In this document: positions 4,473-56,191 of the stretch, piece after piece
Layout: each line of letters begins with the position of its first letter
Numbering within the stretch: the stretch's first letter is position 1
Source: an uncultured Ruminiclostridium sp.
GTDB taxonomy: Bacteria > Bacillota > Clostridia > Oscillospirales > Ruminococcaceae
Assembly (NCBI GenBank): GCA_944388385.1
Contig: CALXIO010000013.1
Location: 1-64,000 of the forward strand
DNA length: 64,000 bases
Reading direction: 5' to 3'
Translations under genes and position numbers: made by a program
The notes under the pieces: model-generated
What the model was told of the DNA's origin: nothing
The model's input: only the letters and a program-made list of their open reading frames with translations
Database searches by the model: none

Positions 4473-5315
4473 CTAATTTAAGGAAAAATATTCTTCGATA
4501 CTCTCACAAACATAGGAATATTCGGGAAAATCCTGCCTTATTCTGTCCCGGCATTTTTTACAAAATCTGTCAAAGCTTTCCTTATCCTCCCGCATTTGCT
4601 GTTTTGCTCCCCACAAATGGGTAAAATAGCTCTGGGGTAAAAATAAGGTGCGATAGTCAAGTAATGTGCCGTAGGGCATACCGCATTTTTTACACAGCAT
4701 GGGAAGAAGTCTCTGCTCTGCAAAAACCATATAAGTAAGAAAATCATCACAGCTTTCCGCACACTTCATAAAGGCTATAGCCTGACTGGTGTAATACTGC
4801 TTGAAATCCTCATCCGGCATATATAAAAAGGCGGTGTTAAGGGCTTTTAGGGAAAAGTCCAGTCCTTCGGGAAAGGTATATCCCCTCATTGAAAAATGGG
4901 ATATATCCGGATATATTTCTGGATTTAATTCCTCCTCGTGGGCGGCTATTATTTTGTTTTCCAGCTTCAGACTTTCCCATACAATAAAGTCTGTATCTAT
5001 CATAACACAGGGAGCCGGGAAATTTCTCAGAGCAAGCAGCTTTGCCCCTGCCCAGAACATGGTGGTATCAAGCCCCTCTGCATTGTCTGACAGGCTGTCA
5101 TCAAGGCGGTTCCAGACCCCTTCTATTCCAAGGGCCTTGAAATATTCCGCCCCTTTTTTATCGGTTATCATGGTAATATCTCCGTTTTTTGCCCGCCAGG
5201 TAAGGGCTGACAATACGGTGCAATATACCTCTGATTTGTCTGTTATTAACTTCTGCCCCTTGTGCTTTACAAAGAAAGGGGCAGAGGAAAATATGTGAAA
5301 TCCGTTTACTCTCAT
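4473..5315 (-). CDS. Putative GT-A-like glycosyltransferase (DxD protein) coupled to the pentad-repeat protein
   Basis: 280 residues, cytoplasmic, with no signal peptide or membrane segment. An IDTDF motif (D107-x-D109) follows a hydrophobic strand (APCVMIDTDFIVW). This is the usual metal/nucleotide-sugar DxD setting of GT-A glycosyltransferases. The overall pattern (early strand, FWAGAKLLALRNF before the DxD, NTAFLYM after it) recalls capsule-type and DUF6734-like putative transferases. The ATG overlaps the stop of the upstream repeat protein by four bases, so translation is probably coupled and the two products are likely made in a fixed ratio. Inferred: it may modify the Ser/Tyr-rich repeat protein or share its substrate. 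No acceptor can be named. It could also be a nucleotidyltransferase or an inactive relative. No clear terminator follows. Confidence 0.6.
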   Translation of the reverse strand: MRVNGFHIFSSAPFFVKHKGQKLITDKSEVYCTVLSALTWRAKNGDITMITDKKGAEYFKALGIEGVWNRLDDSLSDNAEGLDTTMFWAGAKLLALRNFPAPCVMIDTDFIVWESLKLENKIIAAHEEELNPEIYPDISHFSMRGYTFPEGLDFSLKALNTAFLYMPDEDFKQYYTSQAIAFMKCAESCDDFLTYMVFAEQRLLPMLCKKCGMPYGTLLDYRTLFLPQSYFTHLWGAKQQMREDKESFDRFCKKCRDRIRQDFPEYSYVCESIEEYFSLN

Positions 5316-6154
5316 ATCAGGTGTATTCCGTATCCGAACCGGTTTAGAGGCTCAGACTCAAAGAAGTCAATAAGCGCCTTTTCGCTGTATTTAACAAGCC
5401 TGCTGCCGTAAAGGGTGTATGAGCCCACACGGTATGAGCCTATGCCGTATTCATATTCATACTCATATATATGACGATATGAGCCAAGATTATATGAGCC
5501 GAATCTGTATGAGCCAAAGCTATATGAGCCGAAGTTATAACCGAATCTGTATGAGCCTGAGTTATATGAGCCGAAGTTATAGCCGAATCTGTATGAGCCT
5601 GAGTTATATGATCCATAGTTATAGCCGAATCGGTATGAGCCTGAGTTATATGAGCCGAAATTATATCCGAAAAGATATGAGCCTAAGGCATAAGAGCCTA
5701 TATTATATGAGCCTATTTCGTATTCATATTCATGCTGATGATAATGGCTCGTAATTCTGTATGAGCCGACTTTAAAGGAAGTGGGCTTATAAGAAGTTGG
5801 CTTAAAGGAGGTTTTTCCAATTCTCATGGACCCTGTCCGAAAGGAAACCGGTTTATATGAGCCGTTTATAAAAGAACAGGGATTTTTTAAGGGGATAAGC
5901 TGATTTACGCCCTTGTGGTAGGAGGGCTTTTTATATTCCTTGCAGAATATATCAAAAAGCATTTTATCCGGGTTTATGCCCTTAGGGATAGCTTCGATTT
6001 TTCTTGCAAGCTCATCCTCTCCGGATTCATAAAGCCACCTTACAAGGCTTCCGCCTAAATAATAACCTCTTATGTCCGAGATGTTGAAATTTTCCTTTAT
6101 CTGCTCTGCGCTGTTTACTTTCTTGCCGTTTACCCATAGACACCAATTCGCCAT
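5312..6154 (-). CDS. Gly-Ser-Tyr pentad-repeat protein with RWL-type N-terminal module
   Basis: 280 residues, no signal peptide. Residues 1-72 form a globular module (WCLWVNGKKV, then YYLGGSLVRWL at 31-41 and an acidic helix). I recall similar segments at the start of many clostridial hypothetical proteins. Residues 98-252 are tandem pentads of the form [GTV]-S-[YF]-[RNK]-x. In the middle (158-213) they lock into a 14-residue unit, GSYRF-GYNF-GSYNS, repeated four times; each unit is three pentads less one residue. Matching Glu-Tyr runs (HEYEYE, YEYEYEYG) flank the core, and a short helical C-terminus (KYSEKALIDFFE) caps it. The five-residue period with one large residue at a fixed place suggests a pentapeptide-type beta-helix; this is an inference. 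It follows the ttcA-like gene by 45 bases and overlaps the glycosyltransferase gene. Confidence 0.75.
   Translation of the reverse strand: MANWCLWVNGKKVNSAEQIKENFNISDIRGYYLGGSLVRWLYESGEDELARKIEAIPKGINPDKMLFDIFCKEYKKPSYHKGVNQLIPLKNPCSFINGSYKPVSFRTGSMRIGKTSFKPTSYKPTSFKVGSYRITSHYHQHEYEYEIGSYNIGSYALGSYLFGYNFGSYNSGSYRFGYNYGSYNSGSYRFGYNFGSYNSGSYRFGYNFGSYSFGSYRFGSYNLGSYRHIYEYEYEYGIGSYRVGSYTLYGSRLVKYSEKALIDFFESEPLNRFGYGIHLI
5516..5683 (-). repeat. 42-bp tandem repeat in the pentad-repeat gene
   Basis: Four near-identical 42-base units encode GSYRF-GYNF-GSYNS. Conservation includes third codon positions (TATGAGCC and GAATCTGTATGAGCC recur on the plus strand), which points to recent unit duplication. 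Shorter 15-base pentad copies extend on both sides from about 5399 to 5863. Confidence 0.9.
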
Positions 6155-7185: not shown

Positions 7186-9942
7186 TCAATCCTCGCCTAA
7201 CTTTAACGCCTTGTTTATATTTATCTTGCGTATCAAAGCACCGAGGATAGCAAATCCGCCTATAAGCATTATTGCTATAAGGATGTATATCTTTATATAG
7301 TCGCTCTGCATTGCCGCTACTCTGAAGGGGGGTATCTGATCGTTCACCGCATACATATTCTGGAACAGGGGTACAAAAAGATCACTTACAAATCCGCCTA
7401 TTACAAAGGCGCAGGCAATGGATACTCCCGATACCAAAAGCTGTTCATAGCCAAGTATTCCTATTATTTCCCTGAAGGAAATACCCATAGCCCTTAAAAT
7501 ACCGAATTGCAGAGTCCTTCCCTTAATAGACAGTATCCAGTAAATTAAAAAACCTATAATAGTCATTACCATGATTATGATAAAGCCTAAGGTCAATGCC
7601 CCGTTCATACCCTGTAATGAGGGGTCGGTCTTTTCCTCTATAAGCATCTGGGAGCTGTCCTTTATGCTTTCTAAAGGAAGACGGGATTTACTTATGCTGT
7701 CATATAACTGCTGACTTGTGGCGCCATCCTTCATCTTAAGCCATATCTGATAGGGCTCAGGGTCGGTGCGAAGTCTTACATAGTTATAATTCATTACCGC
7801 AAAGTTGCATTTGTTGGGGTTAAGTCCCGGCCAGTAGTCAATAATGGACATAACAGTAGCGTCCACCACATCATTACCGCCCCATTTAAGGGCAACCGCA
7901 TCTCCTATGGAAAGTCCGAACTGCTCTGCAAGTCCGGTGGAGATAAGCACACCGCTTCTGCCCTCCACTAAGGCATTACAATAATTCCACCAATGGATGG
8001 GAAGCAGGTCATTTCTGAACCAGGCGGTCTGTGCGAATTTATCCGGCTCTATTGCCATAAGGGTAAATTCCTGTCTTTCCCCCTTGAAGGTGACATTTTC
8101 ATTTACCAGTACCTTAGTGGCAATTTCCACGCCGTCAAGATTTTCATATCGCTCAAAGTCGGTTTCCACATAGTTTCTCTCCCCGTCCTCTGAGGAGGTC
8201 ATGGAATATTCCGTCAATACCACATCTGCGCCGTTTTCATAATAGATACGGTCGCTGATGTTGTTGTTTATCGCTCTTGCTGTATTTGCTGAAAATAAGC
8301 CAAAGGAGAAGGTCATTACAAGGAACATCATAAGAAATCTTTCCTTGCCTCCCTGTGAACGGCATACCGTGGTAATAGCCATATACTGGGAGGGACTCCA
8401 GAAGCGTCTGAAGGCATAGTACACCACTCTTAAAAGATAGGGGTAAACTCTTATAAATAAAAGTCCGAAGCCTAATATCATAAGGGTGGAGAATACAAAC
8501 AGCATGGGGTCAAGCTCTCCTGTGGGCTCAAAGGTACCCTCGGAAATCTGTGCTGTAAGATTTAAGGAATAGAAATATAAAAATCCGAATCCGCAAAGTA
8601 AAAGTATAATATCAACACCGCATTTTTCCCATAATGCCATTTTTACTACCTTTGTACGGCTTTGCTTATACTGTACAATGGTGAGCTTTGAGGCAGGAAT
8701 AATGGGTATCATGGTGGTAACAAAGAATACCACCACCGCAAGAAGTGCATAAAGCACACTTACAGAGGTTATTTTTGCCGCAATTCCCGTGCGGTTTACA
8801 AACTCTAAAAATCCGTTGGATACACCTAAAAACTGGCACAGGCACAGTCCTATAAAGGGGGCGGCGACTAAGGTTATAACACCTAAAATTCCCGCCTCTG
8901 CGGCATAAAGCCCGAATATCTGAAGTGAGCTTGAGCCACGGCTTTTAAGTACCGCTATTTCATTTCTTTCCCTGTCTACATTAAGCTGAGATACCATAAA
9001 GAGGTAAAATGCCAGCATAACCATGGCAGGAATTTGTAATATCCATAATATACGGGTGAGCTTTTCTGCTCTTTCGGTATAGGCATTAAGTATATCCGAT
9101 ACAGAGAACTGATAAGCATAGCCCTTGCTTTGATATATGCCCTGATCCGCTGAAAGCTCGGCTGTAATATTGCTTATCCTGTTCATGTCAATAGACTGAT
9201 AGTCAAGGGCATACTGCCTTGTAACGGAGGTTATATTAAATACTCCCCCCGGGATAAGGGTATTTACGGCAAGATCATAATCAATAAAGAAGGCATTATG
9301 ATAGCTGTCCATGGTTTCTGCCCAGTAGCTGTCATTGTCGGTAAGCTGTTCATATACACCGGTTATCTCAATGTAATAGGGCTCAGTGGTGGTTGATAAG
9401 GACTTTACCTTATACTTTGTACCTATGTTTATTTCAAGGGTTCTTAATGCCTCCTCACTTGCAAGGCCCTGGTAAACTCCGTCTACCGGGGTAGCTGAGG
9501 GCATTTCGCCTCTTACCAGCTTTATATGATCCGTAAAGCCCTTCATGGCAATAGTTTTCATACGAGTGGAACGTTCCTTGCCGTCCTTTTCTCCGTATAC
9601 AACATAGGTATTATTGTCAAGAATGGTTATCTTCTCCTGTGAGGGGGGTATACCGATAGCGGAAATTCTGCTGTCGGTATCGCTTATGATACCGTTTATG
9701 AAATTACTCTGATCCCCGGGGGCTGTGCCTAAGGCAAGCTCGCCGGTTACGGTATAAAGACCGGGGAATTTTCCGGTATCAAGCTGGTACTGCTCCATAT
9801 CCTTTATCAGCATACGCTGTAATGAAGCGTCCATATATATTGGTATGGTACTCATCATACCTGCCGCCATTAAAAAGCCGATAAGCAGGCATAATACCAT
9901 CCACTTTGTATTGCGCATCTTGCGCCATAACAATGTAAACAT
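7186..9942 (-). CDS. FtsX/MacB-type ABC permease, large duplicated form
   Basis: 918 residues. A first membrane helix (WMVLCLLIGFLMAAGMMS) is followed by a large extracytoplasmic domain of about 250 residues and three helices with the cytosolic motif NVDRERNEIAVLKSRGSS, typical of FtsX-like permeases. The half is then repeated: more helices, a second extracytoplasmic domain and a C-terminal three-helix FtsX bundle with GILRAMGISFREI. Known: such permeases move lipids, lipoproteins or peptides out of the membrane, or transmit force to outer proteins, driven by a separate ATPase. That ATPase gene is not next to it. The HlyD-like gene is 17 bases upstream. Substrate unknown. Confidence 0.85.
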   Translation of the reverse strand: MFTLLWRKMRNTKWMVLCLLIGFLMAAGMMSTIPIYMDASLQRMLIKDMEQYQLDTGKFPGLYTVTGELALGTAPGDQSNFINGIISDTDSRISAIGIPPSQEKITILDNNTYVVYGEKDGKERSTRMKTIAMKGFTDHIKLVRGEMPSATPVDGVYQGLASEEALRTLEINIGTKYKVKSLSTTTEPYYIEITGVYEQLTDNDSYWAETMDSYHNAFFIDYDLAVNTLIPGGVFNITSVTRQYALDYQSIDMNRISNITAELSADQGIYQSKGYAYQFSVSDILNAYTERAEKLTRILWILQIPAMVMLAFYLFMVSQLNVDRERNEIAVLKSRGSSSLQIFGLYAAEAGILGVITLVAAPFIGLCLCQFLGVSNGFLEFVNRTGIAAKITSVSVLYALLAVVVFFVTTMIPIIPASKLTIVQYKQSRTKVVKMALWEKCGVDIILLLCGFGFLYFYSLNLTAQISEGTFEPTGELDPMLFVFSTLMILGFGLLFIRVYPYLLRVVYYAFRRFWSPSQYMAITTVCRSQGGKERFLMMFLVMTFSFGLFSANTARAINNNISDRIYYENGADVVLTEYSMTSSEDGERNYVETDFERYENLDGVEIATKVLVNENVTFKGERQEFTLMAIEPDKFAQTAWFRNDLLPIHWWNYCNALVEGRSGVLISTGLAEQFGLSIGDAVALKWGGNDVVDATVMSIIDYWPGLNPNKCNFAVMNYNYVRLRTDPEPYQIWLKMKDGATSQQLYDSISKSRLPLESIKDSSQMLIEEKTDPSLQGMNGALTLGFIIIMVMTIIGFLIYWILSIKGRTLQFGILRAMGISFREIIGILGYEQLLVSGVSIACAFVIGGFVSDLFVPLFQNMYAVNDQIPPFRVAAMQSDYIKIYILIAIMLIGGFAILGALIRKININKALKLGED

Positions 9943-9959
9943 AACAATACCTCTTCAGC

Positions 9960-10940
9960 TTATTTTACAACGACCTCGTCGCCCTCATTAACTCCGGAAA
10001 GTATCTGTACCTCTGTGGCGTTGGTAATACCTATCTCAACCTCCACATCTATCTTTTCGCCGTCATGGTAAATCTGTACAAAGGTCTTTCCGTCAAGGGT
10101 ATTTACTATATACTTGGGTATAACAATAGCATCATCTGCCTTGTCTCTTATATAGGTAAGGTCAGCTACCTTGCCAACTTCCGCATAGGAAGGAACATCA
10201 CCCTTAAATTCCGCAAAAACGCTGGTGGTGTCCTCATTTCCCTCTGCCTTTGCATCAAGGGGGGTGTAGGTAATAACACCCTCATAGTCGGTTTCCCCTA
10301 TGGTGATAGTAACATCCTGCCCCTTAGTAAACTTTCTTTCCTCGTTTACAGATGCCTTTACAAATATCTTTGTGGGGTCTATTATGGTGGCTATAACTTC
10401 ATAAGCCTTTACCTCATCCCCGGGATTTATCCTTTCGGTGAAGCTGACAGTGCCGTCCACCGGAGCATATATCTTGGAATTGTCATATTCATTCTGATAC
10501 CGGTCCAGCTTATTCTGCTCTATCTCCACCTGAAGTCTGTCATTTTCACTGCCGGTAGCGGCATAGGTATTCTTAGCCTGCTGTAATTTAAGCTCCTGCT
10601 CGCGCATGGCATAATAAAGATCTCCTGTGTCATACTCCGCTATAAGATCTCCCTGCTTCACCACATCCCCTGCCTGAACATATATCTTCTTTAAGATACC
10701 GTCCTTGCCGGTAAACATACAGTTTTCCTGTACGGATGACATACAGTAGCCTGATGATGCCGCCTTGTCTACTATGGTCTTTTTTACTGCCTTATATGTG
10801 GAATAGGTAACATCCTCTACTTTAAGCACCGGTGGTTCAAGCAGCTTTTCCTCCTCAGGGAAAAAGTAGCAACCGGATAAGCTGCCTGCTGAAATAACAC
10901 AGGCAAGAATAAGCGCCGGAACTGAATATTTTCTTCTCAT
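9960..10940 (-). CDS. HlyD/MacA-like periplasmic-adaptor-type lipoprotein
   Basis: 326 residues with a lipoprotein signal peptide (ALILACVISAGSLSGC, cysteine at about residue 23). It then shows the adaptor plan: first half of a lipoyl-like fold (GILKKIYVQAGDVVKQGDLIAEYDTG), a short coiled coil (about 130-155, QEQELKLQQAK type), the second lipoyl half (IYAPVDGTVSFTERINPGDEV), a beta-barrel and a C-terminal SGVNEGDEVVVK. In Gram-positive bacteria these lipoproteins link an ABC permease to the outside. It is the first gene of the minus-strand run down to 4473. The upstream 245 bases are AT-rich; I find no convincing -35/-10 pair for this strand, only a weak TAAAAT near 11000. Confidence 0.85.
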   Translation of the reverse strand: MRRKYSVPALILACVISAGSLSGCYFFPEEEKLLEPPVLKVEDVTYSTYKAVKKTIVDKAASSGYCMSSVQENCMFTGKDGILKKIYVQAGDVVKQGDLIAEYDTGDLYYAMREQELKLQQAKNTYAATGSENDRLQVEIEQNKLDRYQNEYDNSKIYAPVDGTVSFTERINPGDEVKAYEVIATIIDPTKIFVKASVNEERKFTKGQDVTITIGETDYEGVITYTPLDAKAEGNEDTTSVFAEFKGDVPSYAEVGKVADLTYIRDKADDAIVIPKYIVNTLDGKTFVQIYHDGEKIDVEVEIGITNATEVQILSGVNEGDEVVVK

Positions 10941-20968: not shown

Positions 20969-22384
20969 TTACCACTCTTCGCTCTGTGCCTCGGTTTCCT
21001 CCTCATAGGAAGGCTCTGTTTCCTCAGCAGGAGCTTCAGTTTCCTCAGCAGGAGCTTCAGTTTCCTCAGCCGGAGCTTCTGTTTCTTCAGCAGGGGCTTC
21101 GGTTTCCTCAGCCGGAGCTTCTGTTTCTTCAGCAGGGGCTTCGGTTTCCTCAGCCGGGGCTTCTGTTTCTTCAGCAGGTGCTTCTGTTTCCTCGGCCGGG
21201 GGTTCTGTTTCCTCGTATGTTTCATCTGAGGGGGCGGGGTTTGGAGCAGGAGTTGTTGTGGTGGTGGTTTCGGGATTTTCAGTATTTGCCTCTCTTATGG
21301 GACGGAAGGTAACCTTTACCGCATCGGAAGCATCCTTTACCTGATTTAAGAAAAGTGTACCCTTTTCCCCTGTAAATTCACCGTTGTCTATTAGCTTTTT
21401 AGCTATCATCAGCTTTTGCTCAACCACTATATTTTCCCCTAACTCCAGCTTTATCTGATCCTCATAATTAAGGGATATTTTGTATATACTTGATATATCA
21501 AGGGAAATTATATTATCCTTAAGGCCGCAGGCATCTATAAGGCTCAACAGCTTAAAAAGTACCTCGTACTTTTCTACTGCGCCGTTATATTCATCCTCTA
21601 TGCCGTCATACTGCTTTACTATGCTAAGCAGCTTTACAAGGTTATTTCTTCCTCTTTCGCTGGCCGCCGAAAGAAAATCTCCCGACTGGGCATATTCCGG
21701 CTCAAAGCCCTCTACGATAATATAATTCTCATCCGGTTTTGTAAGCTCAGAATCCATTATACGGCCGTTCTGACTGATAAGATAATAATTGCTGTCGCAT
21801 ACCACATTGGCAACCGCCTGTGCCTTTGTCAGCTTTATTGTGATCGTATTTTTAAAGGGGGATTTTTCTATCTCCGCCTTATCTATATAGGGCAGCTTAT
21901 TAAGAAGGCTATCCTCTGCGGCGGCGGTATCCATAGTCCAGATATTCTGTCCCATTACTATACCGGAAGCGTCGATTACCTCCTTGTCACTGTAGCCTGC
22001 GTTATTTTCTACCACAATCTTTTCTGTATTAAAAAGCACGGTTACCGATAAGGCAACAAACAATGCCACCGCAAATACGGTCAGCAATACTATATGGTAG
22101 GTATAGCGCTTTATTGAGCCCTTTCTCTTAGGCTCGTCAGAACGCTTTTTATTCTTTAAGGCTCTGCTTTGTATATCCCTGCCCTTTACAGGTCTTTTTT
22201 CAGATCTGTCATAAACGGGAGTGGTGTTGCTTCTGCCTGAAGCAGGCTTTTTTGCAGGCTTTTTGCCCTTTGCCGGCTGATTTTTGCCCTTTTGGGATGT
22301 ATTTCCTTCCGGCTCAGGCTTTGGTGCCGGTGTTCGTTTTCTTGCCGGCGGCATTTCAAACTGCCTGCCAAAATTTTCAGCCAT
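20969..22384 (-). CDS. ftsQ: FtsQ/DivIB division protein with long acidic EETEAPA tail
   Basis: 471 residues. A basic, Pro/Lys-rich cytoplasmic segment (about 1-92) leads to one membrane helix (YHIVLLTVFAVALFVALSVTVLF). Next come a POTRA-type domain (NTEKIVVENNAGYSDKEVIDASG) and a beta domain (ANVVCDSNYYLISQNGRI). These are FtsQ/DivIB features; the protein links FtsL and FtsW/FtsI at the septum. Unusual: the last 95 or so residues are a Thr/Pro linker and about eight EETEAPA repeats outside the membrane, ending EAQSEEW. Family members normally stop after the beta domain or have only a short tail. It lies directly after murA with a 21-base gap. Confidence 0.9.
   Translation of the reverse strand: MAENFGRQFEMPPARKRTPAPKPEPEGNTSQKGKNQPAKGKKPAKKPASGRSNTTPVYDRSEKRPVKGRDIQSRALKNKKRSDEPKRKGSIKRYTYHIVLLTVFAVALFVALSVTVLFNTEKIVVENNAGYSDKEVIDASGIVMGQNIWTMDTAAAEDSLLNKLPYIDKAEIEKSPFKNTITIKLTKAQAVANVVCDSNYYLISQNGRIMDSELTKPDENYIIVEGFEPEYAQSGDFLSAASERGRNNLVKLLSIVKQYDGIEDEYNGAVEKYEVLFKLLSLIDACGLKDNIISLDISSIYKISLNYEDQIKLELGENIVVEQKLMIAKKLIDNGEFTGEKGTLFLNQVKDASDAVKVTFRPIREANTENPETTTTTTPAPNPAPSDETYEETEPPAEETEAPAEETEAPAEETEAPAEETEAPAEETEAPAEETEAPAEETEAPAEETEAPAEETEPSYEEETEAQSEEW
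21010..21195 (-). repeat. 21-bp tandem repeat coding EETEAPA in ftsQ
   Basis: About eight copies of a 21-base unit (plus strand GGAGCTTCNGTTTCYTCAGC) with a few synonymous changes. The coded heptad is related in composition to the EAPEET hexad at 1033-1160. Confidence 0.9.
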
Positions 22385-53861: not shown

Positions 53862-53889
53862 AAAAAAGCGGACAAATGTCCGCTTTTTT
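53862..53889 (-). terminator. Terminator after spoIIE
   Basis: Stem AAGCGGACA/TGTCCGCTT with A and T runs on both sides, touching the spoIIE stop codon. Confidence 0.88.
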
Positions 53890-56165
53890 CAGTCCCTCAC
53901 AAGCCTCAACCCAACAACCGAAATATCGTCCTCCTTGCCATCCCTTGAATAAAATCTTGCTGTATCTGCTATTACCTTTACCAGCTCTTCAAGGGGGGTG
54001 TCCTTATTTTCTATTTCTCTGAAAAGCCAGTTTTCGCTTACCTCTACCCCGTCGCTGATCATTATAACAACATCATTATCCTGTAGTCTTATTTCCCTTT
54101 GGGTATAGCTGCTGTCAGCCTCCACTCCCATCGGCATACCTGAGGGCGGGACTGTTATATGCCGCTTGCCGCTTTTTATATAGGTCTGGGCCGCACCTGC
54201 CTTATATATTTTTCCGTCGCCGCTGTAAAGGTCAACTGTGCAAATATCTAAAGTGGCAAAGCTCTCATCCTCGCTTTTTACCATAAGGGCGGTATTTATT
54301 ATTTCCAAGGCGGCGCATAATCCCATGCCGGATTTAAGCAGTCTTACAAGCATTCCCCCTGCAAAGGTGGAATCCACCCTTGCCCTGGCACCGCTTCCCA
54401 TACCGTCTGAAAGTATCAGATAGGCTGTGCCCTTGGTGTCTGTAAAGCTCTCAAAATAATCTCCGCAGGCCTTACCCTCATTCTTTGAAAGCTGGCATAT
54501 TGCCGTTTCTATATAATAGGGGGTCTTTGACAGCATAACCATTTTATATATACCTCCGCTGTGGCTTAATGTGGGAGGGTCAAACTGCCGTCTCAGTCCT
54601 ATTGAAAAGGCCTCGCATATATCCTTTGCCGGGGCAAAGCTGCCCTTTGTGGTATATGCCTCAACGGTAATATTCCCCCTTTGGCCTACCGTCACATTTA
54701 CCGTTTCTATCTTCTCACAGCCTGCCTTTGATAAAAGCTCTGCGGCGGTGGTATTGTAATCGGTCATGGTTTTACTGCCGTATTCCTCGTTATTTGCGAA
54801 TTCCTCCAGCATATTCTCCGTAGCGGCAAGCTGTACGGTAAGTATTCTTCTCATGTCATCTATTCTTCGCTTTTCCCTTGCGCTGTTGATAAAAGCATCA
54901 TAAAGGGAGGATATTTTATTATACAGCTTCTCGGTATTTTTGCACCGTTCCCTGCACCTTACTGCAAATAATTCCGGGTTATATGCCTCTCCCCGTCTTA
55001 CCGATTCGGTAACCGTCATAAAGCCCTTTATAGTATCGCTGTATTCATTCCCCCAGCAAAGCATACTGTACCGGCATTTTTTACAGATACTGTCACAGGC
55101 GGTATCATATACCCAGGATATATCATTTACCACCCCGGGCTTTAAGGCCTCTGCGGTAATATCAAGGGTATGCCTTAAATCCGCAAGGGCGTTTGAAGTA
55201 AACCTCATTCTTTTGGAAAATAACGCCCTGTGGGAATTATCCAGTTCCCGTAGCTTCGCTAAGGTACTGCCTGCCCTTTCCTGTGGCATTGGCATTATAA
55301 GGGCAATAGCGCCGCTTAAAAATATATTCGCCATAAGCTGCATACTGTCATTGTTCATGGTAAAAAGCATGGCGCATACTGTTGCTGTAAGGGCATAAGC
55401 CCCCACCGCAAAAAGCCGTTTATCCTTGTCTATGCTTCCGGCTATTGCACCTGCTATGCAAAGTACCGGGCATAATATGATATTTCCCCCGGACACCGCC
55501 ACCCCCACAGCACAGGCTGTACCGGATATTGCCGCTCCGCCGCTTTTGTATCTTAAAGCTGAGTAGCAGGAAACAATGCCGGAAAATATTACTCCCAGAT
55601 TAAATACCCCCACCCCAAAGCCGGAAAGCACAAAGGATGCTATTATAAGTACGGTTATTATGCTGAATATTCCCACCGGGGTTTTAGTTATGGTTATATC
55701 GGATATTTCCCGGTTTTTTATTATTCTTTGGGTGTTTATCATGGCATAGCTTCCTGCGGCGGCAAATATTCCGCAGGCTATGGCATTTATTACCCCGGTT
55801 ACCCCATGGCATAAAAGAAGATCAATTCCCAAAACTCCTACCCCGGCGGTTATTGAGCTTAATATATCGGATAATCTTCCACCCCTTCTTGAAAACATCA
55901 TTCTTACCGCCATTACCGATAAAAGTGCGGACATATATAACAGCTTGTCCTCAAAGCTGCCGGTAATAAGATAGCCTATAACCGTTCCTAAATATCCGCT
56001 TACACAGTCAATACCCGCAAGGGCGGATATAAATGAGGCGGAAAATGGAGAGGGATTTTCAAGCACGTCTCCTAATGATATTGCCGCCCCCATAAGGCCA
56101 ACGGCTATTGTTCTTAATATTCCCCCGGAGGTTACTCTTTGTGATGTATATACCTTTCCTGACAT
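53889..56165 (-). CDS. spoIIE: Stage II sporulation protein E, membrane PP2C phosphatase
   Basis: Start at the ATG 56165 (MSGKVYTSQR) with AAAGGG nine bases upstream; a TTG at 56183 is in frame but less likely. About 758 residues: ten or so hydrophobic segments in residues 20-310, a coiled/oligomerisation region with four Cys around CDSICKKCRYSMLC, and a C-terminal PP2C domain (LILSDGMGSGARARVDS, VVIMISDGVEVSEN). Known: SpoIIE dephosphorylates SpoIIAA and so releases sigma F in the forespore; it also associates with FtsZ. It marks the organism as a spore former or recent descendant of one. Confidence 0.95.
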   Translation of the reverse strand: MSGKVYTSQRVTSGGILRTIAVGLMGAAISLGDVLENPSPFSASFISALAGIDCVSGYLGTVIGYLITGSFEDKLLYMSALLSVMAVRMMFSRRGGRLSDILSSITAGVGVLGIDLLLCHGVTGVINAIACGIFAAAGSYAMINTQRIIKNREISDITITKTPVGIFSIITVLIIASFVLSGFGVGVFNLGVIFSGIVSCYSALRYKSGGAAISGTACAVGVAVSGGNIILCPVLCIAGAIAGSIDKDKRLFAVGAYALTATVCAMLFTMNNDSMQLMANIFLSGAIALIMPMPQERAGSTLAKLRELDNSHRALFSKRMRFTSNALADLRHTLDITAEALKPGVVNDISWVYDTACDSICKKCRYSMLCWGNEYSDTIKGFMTVTESVRRGEAYNPELFAVRCRERCKNTEKLYNKISSLYDAFINSAREKRRIDDMRRILTVQLAATENMLEEFANNEEYGSKTMTDYNTTAAELLSKAGCEKIETVNVTVGQRGNITVEAYTTKGSFAPAKDICEAFSIGLRRQFDPPTLSHSGGIYKMVMLSKTPYYIETAICQLSKNEGKACGDYFESFTDTKGTAYLILSDGMGSGARARVDSTFAGGMLVRLLKSGMGLCAALEIINTALMVKSEDESFATLDICTVDLYSGDGKIYKAGAAQTYIKSGKRHITVPPSGMPMGVEADSSYTQREIRLQDNDVVIMISDGVEVSENWLFREIENKDTPLEELVKVIADTARFYSRDGKEDDISVVGLRLVRD

Positions 56166-56191
56166 TTTAACATTCCCTTTCAAAATAATAA

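Follow-up and report, generated by a model that had tools for sequence, protein, structure and literature searches.

The locus described here consists of two minus-strand genes, designated REP and GT, within a window of 64,000 nucleotides (the whole stretch of DNA analysed) from an uncultured Ruminiclostridium sp. ORF calling assigns 280 codons to each gene and places REP (5312-6154) upstream of GT (4473-5315) with a 4-base overlap (ATGA, 5312-5315), bearing out the description of two equal-length, overlapping genes in the first-pass annotation. REP, the putative acceptor protein of the pair as defined from its ORF, repeat count, structural model, and homologs, is composed of a predicted helical, folded N-terminal domain (residues 1-75, 5930-6154; pLDDT about 95 over residues 11-70), a low-complexity tract rich in Ser and aromatic residues (residues 98-246, 5417-5863), and a C-terminal segment following the tract that ends ...SEPLNRFGYGIHLI. 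The last seven residues form a tail, GYGIHLI (residues 274-280, 5315-5335; stop codon 5312-5314), that is conserved in the partner proteins of related loci, and two blocks of alternating glutamate and tyrosine, HEYEYE (residues 141-146, 5717-5734) and YEYEYEY (residues 230-236, 5447-5467), lie within the tract; neither the tail nor the two EYEYE blocks figured in the earlier annotation. GT, assigned by profile (PF20508) and predicted fold as a DUF6734 protein and GT8-like glycosyltransferase, carries a DxD motif (DTD, residues 107-109, 4989-4997), the sequence NTAF (residues 160-163, 4827-4838) at the site of the GT8 N[SA]G motif, and an HxxGxxK-like motif, THLWGAK (residues 232-238, 4602-4622).

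Upstream of the pair on the same strand are genes for an HlyD-like adaptor (9960-10940) and a large ABC-type permease (7186-9942), families also present near 17 loci in a comparison of 30, perhaps as mere shared gene order. A 764-residue protein judged by eye to be SpoIIE-like (53889-56183, minus strand) suggests that the organism sporulates. Acidic tandem repeats of the EAPEET/EAPAEET type occur in two window proteins, both encoded on the minus strand: one (20969-22384) is FtsQ/DivIB-like and adjoins FtsZ, both names assigned by eye, and the other (783-1634), near the window start, appears secreted.

The structural model of REP reaches high confidence only over roughly residues 1-72, and residues 115-228 are predicted to be disordered (pLDDT <50; the 36-sequence alignment behind the model is gappy). 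The N-terminal domain is without a Pfam or NCBIfam match and without a PDB fold match at E<=1. The repeats reported in the first-pass annotation are real, in that residues 86-280 contain 21 [GTV]S[YF] units, whereas 5000 shuffles that preserved composition averaged 1.5 and never exceeded 7, but their number had been put too high at about 30 pentads: only 17 conform to the strict pattern [GTV]S[YF][RNK]x. Nor is the regular pentad structure proposed at that time supported, since units are irregularly spaced, the tract is predicted to be disordered, and the period varies among relatives.

GT matches the Pfam family DUF6734 (PF20508) with an E-value of 7.7e-10 and 39.1 bits against a cut-off of 27. 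Its transferase fold, which had been offered as a point to check by structure prediction, is predicted with high confidence (pLDDT 95.3, pTM 0.92; alignment of 60 window and database relatives), and glycogenin is its nearest structural neighbor. Foldseek searches of the PDB with the model returned glycogenins as best matches (E 1.3e-5, TM about 0.37-0.4), and in VIA glycogenin filled the top 25 rows, with Z from 13.2 down to 12.0, ahead of UGGT and LgtC (11.8); the best glycogenin match there (Z 13.2) aligned 218 residues at an rmsd of 4.2. GT8 enzymes carry N[SA]G and HxxGxxK(PW) motifs. Residues of the catalytic type are strictly kept in GT: D107, D109, K92, N160, H233, G236, and K238 are invariant in 60/60 aligned relatives, as are T161 and F163 of NTAF and T232 and W235 of THLWGAK. 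The IDTDF motif originally noted in the second protein is thus confirmed, and both of its aspartates are invariant. Relative to the GT8 HxxGxxKPW motif, however, HLWGAKQ of GT is one residue shorter and lacks PW, with H, G, and K retained. Neither GT nor five subfamily relatives scanned matched PF01501 (GT8) at E<=1, and searches of the GT sequence against PDB chains gave chance-level matches only. The modelled fold is GT8-like, yet by profile the protein lies outside GT8. We found no DUF6734 protein whose activity has been tested. Additionally, the proteins of L171 and L187, from another family, score fully as DUF6734 (204 bits) and are without a tail-bearing partner, which indicates that the pairing described below marks a subfamily of DUF6734 to which GT belongs.

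To what extent do the two genes travel together? Rare adjacency of homologs had been named as a refuting outcome, and the pair passed this test. Among loci selected by GT, 154 hold 135 distinct GTs (L171 and L187 being left out of this count, and L001-L060, mostly found through REP, lying outside it), and a tail-bearing protein is encoded within 3 kb of 130 of the 135. In 97 of these 130 cases the genes abut or overlap, in 6 they are separated by 31-100 nt, in 26 they lie further apart, and in 1 the partner is on the 3' side. The remaining five GTs all belong to the genus g507 and have a tail protein at an unlinked site in the same genome; the coupling, which holds here in trans, therefore outlives the loss of linkage. 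The g507 GT follows an O-methyltransferase gene, and the unlinked partners, in the four longer stretches read (L243, L244, L245, and L246), adjoin a peptidase U32-like gene, these gene names being assigned by eye. Peptidase U32-like and O-methyltransferase genes are often neighbors elsewhere, and the arrangement in g507 suggests a split ancestral cluster. In the far class, the three loci read (L113:4573-5998, L120:4690-6004, and L142:2161-2820; one clade) have one or two membrane proteins, one of them DUF6709, between partner and GT; a gene for a LolD-like ABC ATPase follows GT in this clade. Across the neighbor families of 30 loci, no constant third gene stands beside the pair. All loci together comprise 142 distinct GTs, with partial GTs at L050 and L051, a partial partner at L239, and partner fragments at L073 and L108; one further genome, G398, has GT at a contig start and is not among the loci.

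Searches from the REP side give a concordant picture. Of 60 genomes, 30 were found to carry the REP N-terminal domain, and every one of these belongs to the genus (36 genomes); GT is the next gene in 29/29 other loci that carry the domain, two being cut by contig ends. Six members of the genus are without the domain, and four of these have GT beside a GSF/GSY-repeat partner with a GYG tail (in G015 only part of the partner is on the contig); the other two, G001 and G003 (86 and 82% complete), are without GT and also without the exact tail pattern. More widely, GT-based surveys, whose genomes overlap, were positive in 45/394 genomes of the order, 20/391 of the class, and 3/398 of the phylum. 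Named relatives, among the 80 retained of 119, are metagenome-assembled genomes from gut and termite gut ("termite" being taken from isolate names), labelled mostly as Ruminiclostridium, Eubacterium, Oscillospiraceae, and Clostridia. This predicted two-gene system is carried by many gut Clostridia. An origin in phages or mobile elements was rejected on the basis of searches of phages (no match to REP), viral contigs (29 pattern matches to GT relatives, 0 confirmed), and plasmids (no match to GT).

Judged from the sequences, no part of the system is better conserved than the tail GYGIHLI. Over all loci, the tail occurs in partners encoded within 3 kb of 137 of the 142 distinct GTs, with 5 more partners unlinked. 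The tails of the 137 linked partners begin with GYG in 136 and GFG in 1 (L089), a single variant that weakens the candidacy of the GYG tyrosine as acceptor. In 135 of the 137 the tail is the exact end of the protein, one of the others extending 3 residues beyond it and one 34. As a control, complete ORFs reaching 80 aa were collected from all loci; of these 1280 distinct ORFs, 121 end in the tail, and all 121 are partners, copies of partners, or unlinked partners. In the source genome, the pattern matches solely at REP. A DNA pattern for the GYG tail plus stop codon was found in 22 of 26 GT-positive genomes, the remaining four carrying tail variants, and in 4 of 43 GT-negative genomes; these GT-positive (26; 25 for the gene comparison below) and GT-negative (43; 41) sets are hand-picked subsets of the surveyed genomes. 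Of the four GT-negative matches, three are interrupted by a stop codon that lies in frame within the pattern, the last is a frame of eight residues, and no tail-bearing Ser-rich protein with the exact tail pattern was found in the 43 genomes. One distant partner, 350 aa long and from another class of the phylum (L188:5188-6240, minus strand), ends SGSGFGGYGLELIDAR; the GT at this locus is 248 aa long with a C-terminus that looks truncated, and a transposase-like gene abuts it.

In marked contrast to the tail, the N-terminal domain changes or is absent across clades while the Ser-rich tract and the GYG[IL]xx[IV] tail stay. Residues 1-72 of REP, proposed in the first-pass annotation as the handle for a survey, turn out not to be the defining part, since other clades carry unrelated N-terminal domains or none. 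The N-terminal regions of partners fall into four classes without mutual BLAST similarity (classes 0 to 3, with 88, 28, 7, and 6 of the 142), the rest being singletons and one group of three. The GT tree, built on 140 of the 142 distinct GTs, follows these partner classes. Within it, seven class-0 GTs and the GTs of five partners that lack an N-terminal domain group together (support 0.95), a nesting that indicates probable loss of the domain there with retention of tract and tail.

In the tracts of the four classes, taken in order, the commonest spacing of the Ser motif is 5; 4 (then 2); 4; and 2, indicating that composition rather than period is kept. Ser is followed mainly by F; G/Y; F/G; and G in these classes. 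Class-3 tracts are GS repeats nearly free of aromatics. Alternating blocks of glutamate and an aromatic residue, in the forms EYEYE or EWEWE, occur in 53/88 class-0, 2/28 class-1, 4/7 class-2, and 0/6 class-3 partners (partners at some loci between L123 and L135 entering these data as counts rather than sequences read by eye). In comparisons of close class-0 pairs, the fraction of positions kept was 0.76 for Ser, 0.75 for aromatics, and 0.74 for Gly, compared with 0.52 for linker residues; in class 1 the corresponding values were 0.92 for Ser, 0.77 for aromatics, and 0.54 for linker residues. Tyr and Phe exchange freely, such swaps making up 75 of the 196 changes at class-0 aromatic positions, and exchange of Ser for Thr is uncommon, at 19 of 182 Ser changes in this class. 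Many O-glycosyltransferases accept Ser as well as Thr. The conservation patterns of Ser and aromatic residues favor Ser over Tyr as the putative acceptor.

The first-pass annotation had raised the idea that the second protein modifies the first, and both the coupling of the genes and the predicted fold of GT lend support to this idea. In the reading that we favor and regard as reasonably probable, taken as a whole, the pair would constitute a dedicated cytoplasmic protein-glycosylation module. GT, a GT8-like enzyme of a DUF6734 subfamily, would recognize its partner by docking on the GYG[IL]xx[IV] C-terminal tail and would then move sugar onto the hydroxyls of the many tract serines that precede the tail. 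The product would be a densely O-glycosylated protein in which the sugared tract is attached to an interchangeable N-terminal domain. Tail-directed O-glycosylation of REP-type serines by a GT8-like enzyme is, in our judgment, the best reading at the same level of confidence: given a glycogenin-type enzyme, a dedicated partner, and a disordered, hydroxyl-rich tract whose period is free and whose tail is fixed, docking and Ser glycosylation provide the simplest explanation. Several observations weigh against it, however. In class 0, Ser is no better conserved than the aromatic residues and Gly, a pattern that a structural role would equally account for; the TM scores to glycogenin are low; a GT8 sequence match is absent; and Ser-to-Thr exchange is uncommon.

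A related proposal is that the pair is a split counterpart of glycogenin, in which GT would start short glucans on Ser or Tyr of its partner and so prime glycogen or another intracellular polysaccharide. The fold comparison agrees with this proposal, and a review describes bacterial genomes as revealing no glycogenin homologs (PMC11046441); yet the same review states that bacterial glycogen synthase can self-prime (PMC11046441). A gene for GT5 glycogen/starch synthase is indeed present in 25/25 GT-positive genomes, but also in 37/41 GT-negative genomes, a difference that is not significant and leaves the synthase link uninformative. Moreover, the neighbor families read at 30 loci included no glycogen gene next to the pair, and acceptor sites by the dozen exceed the need of a primer. 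We consider this proposal unlikely.

The partner might instead be a self-assembling or condensate-forming low-complexity protein, with GT as a structural or regulatory companion or as an enzyme acting elsewhere for which REP serves as adaptor. Sticker-spacer sequences resemble Gly/Ser-aromatic tracts of this kind, class-0 aromatics are as conserved as Ser, and the alternating EYEYE or EWEWE blocks fit the same picture. Against it, class-3 tracts are nearly devoid of aromatics, and the invariance of the catalytic-type residues of GT points to an enzyme and not to a structural companion; we find such a role rather unlikely. Less probable still is a RiPP-like system, in which the partner would be the precursor of a small modified peptide, its C-terminal part being glycosylated by GT, cut off, and exported. 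Very small partners do exist (60, 73, 81, and 84 aa), the conserved part is C-terminal, and an HlyD-like and permease pair is found near the window genes and near 17 loci. However, no constant protease or dedicated exporter adjoins the pair at 30 loci, and the near-invariant part is the tail and not the tract. Most RiPP precursors also show the reverse of the arrangement seen here, in which a conserved C-terminus follows variable N-terminal domains. Among the neighbors read, no enzyme of a known RiPP class was noticed. Finally, it is very improbable that REP forms a right-handed quadrilateral beta-helix of the pentapeptide-repeat type and that its neighbor is incidental, for although the Pentapeptide_2 profile (PF01469) gives 36.7 bits (cut-off 26.4), no single stretch passes alone, the tract is predicted to be disordered (pLDDT <50), the period is unconserved (5, 4, and 2 among relatives), and coupling to GT is near-absolute.

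Returning to tail-directed glycosylation of the tract serines, we can place the proposed module among characterized systems. Glycogenin (GT8) offers the closest fold, a DxD with a downstream HxxGxK-like motif, and, as proposed here, a protein acceptor; the present system differs in that acceptor and enzyme are encoded by separate genes, in having neither a PF01501 nor a PDB sequence match, in a likely Ser acceptor instead of one Tyr, and in a synthase link that is not significant. Streptococcal serine-rich repeat proteins have acceptors much longer than the partners described here. Partners are also without an LPxTG cell-wall anchor, 135 of the 137 linked ones ending exactly in the GYG tail, and no SecA2, SecY2, or Asp genes were noticed among the neighbor families at 30 loci, of which the first residues were viewed. 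In the streptococcal system, the transferases GtfA/GtfB, encoded alongside the repeat protein, O-glycosylate its Ser-rich tract in the cytoplasm (PMC7661464); here a single GT8-like enzyme would replace GtfA/GtfB. Similarly, FlmG of Caulobacter is a cytoplasmic O-glycosyltransferase dedicated to a set substrate that it recognizes by itself (PMC7591256), but FlmG has a modular build and modifies flagellins, whereas in the present case the substrate bears a portable C-terminal tail. Our literature search found no paper on the pair, DUF6734, PF20508, DUF6709, or the tail, in agreement with the first-pass statement that no described system with this pair is known. We rate dedicated cytoplasmic O-glycosylation as a known kind of system whose enzyme family, substrate, and recognition tail are, in this instance, undescribed.

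These results give an uncharacterized Pfam family a predicted fold together with a motif whose role in recognition can be tested, and they point to a probable substrate. They also reveal a two-gene system that is conserved on the chromosomes of gut and ruminant Clostridia. If tail-directed glycosylation by one enzyme is correct, the pair would offer a simple model of how such enzymes locate a substrate that is disordered, and it might also serve as a glycosylation tag. In its boldest form, which we hold to be unlikely though worth stating, the Ser-rich tract and GYG[IL]xx[IV] tail would be a portable acceptor tag new to bacteria, appended to unrelated domains and guiding a glycogenin-fold enzyme to build glucans at multiple sites, and the pair would be a two-gene bacterial glycogenin, a protein-primed starter of polysaccharide. 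Were the sugars extended into glucans in this way, the finding would reopen the question of how bacteria start polysaccharide chains, glycogenin homologs being absent from bacteria according to the review (PMC11046441).
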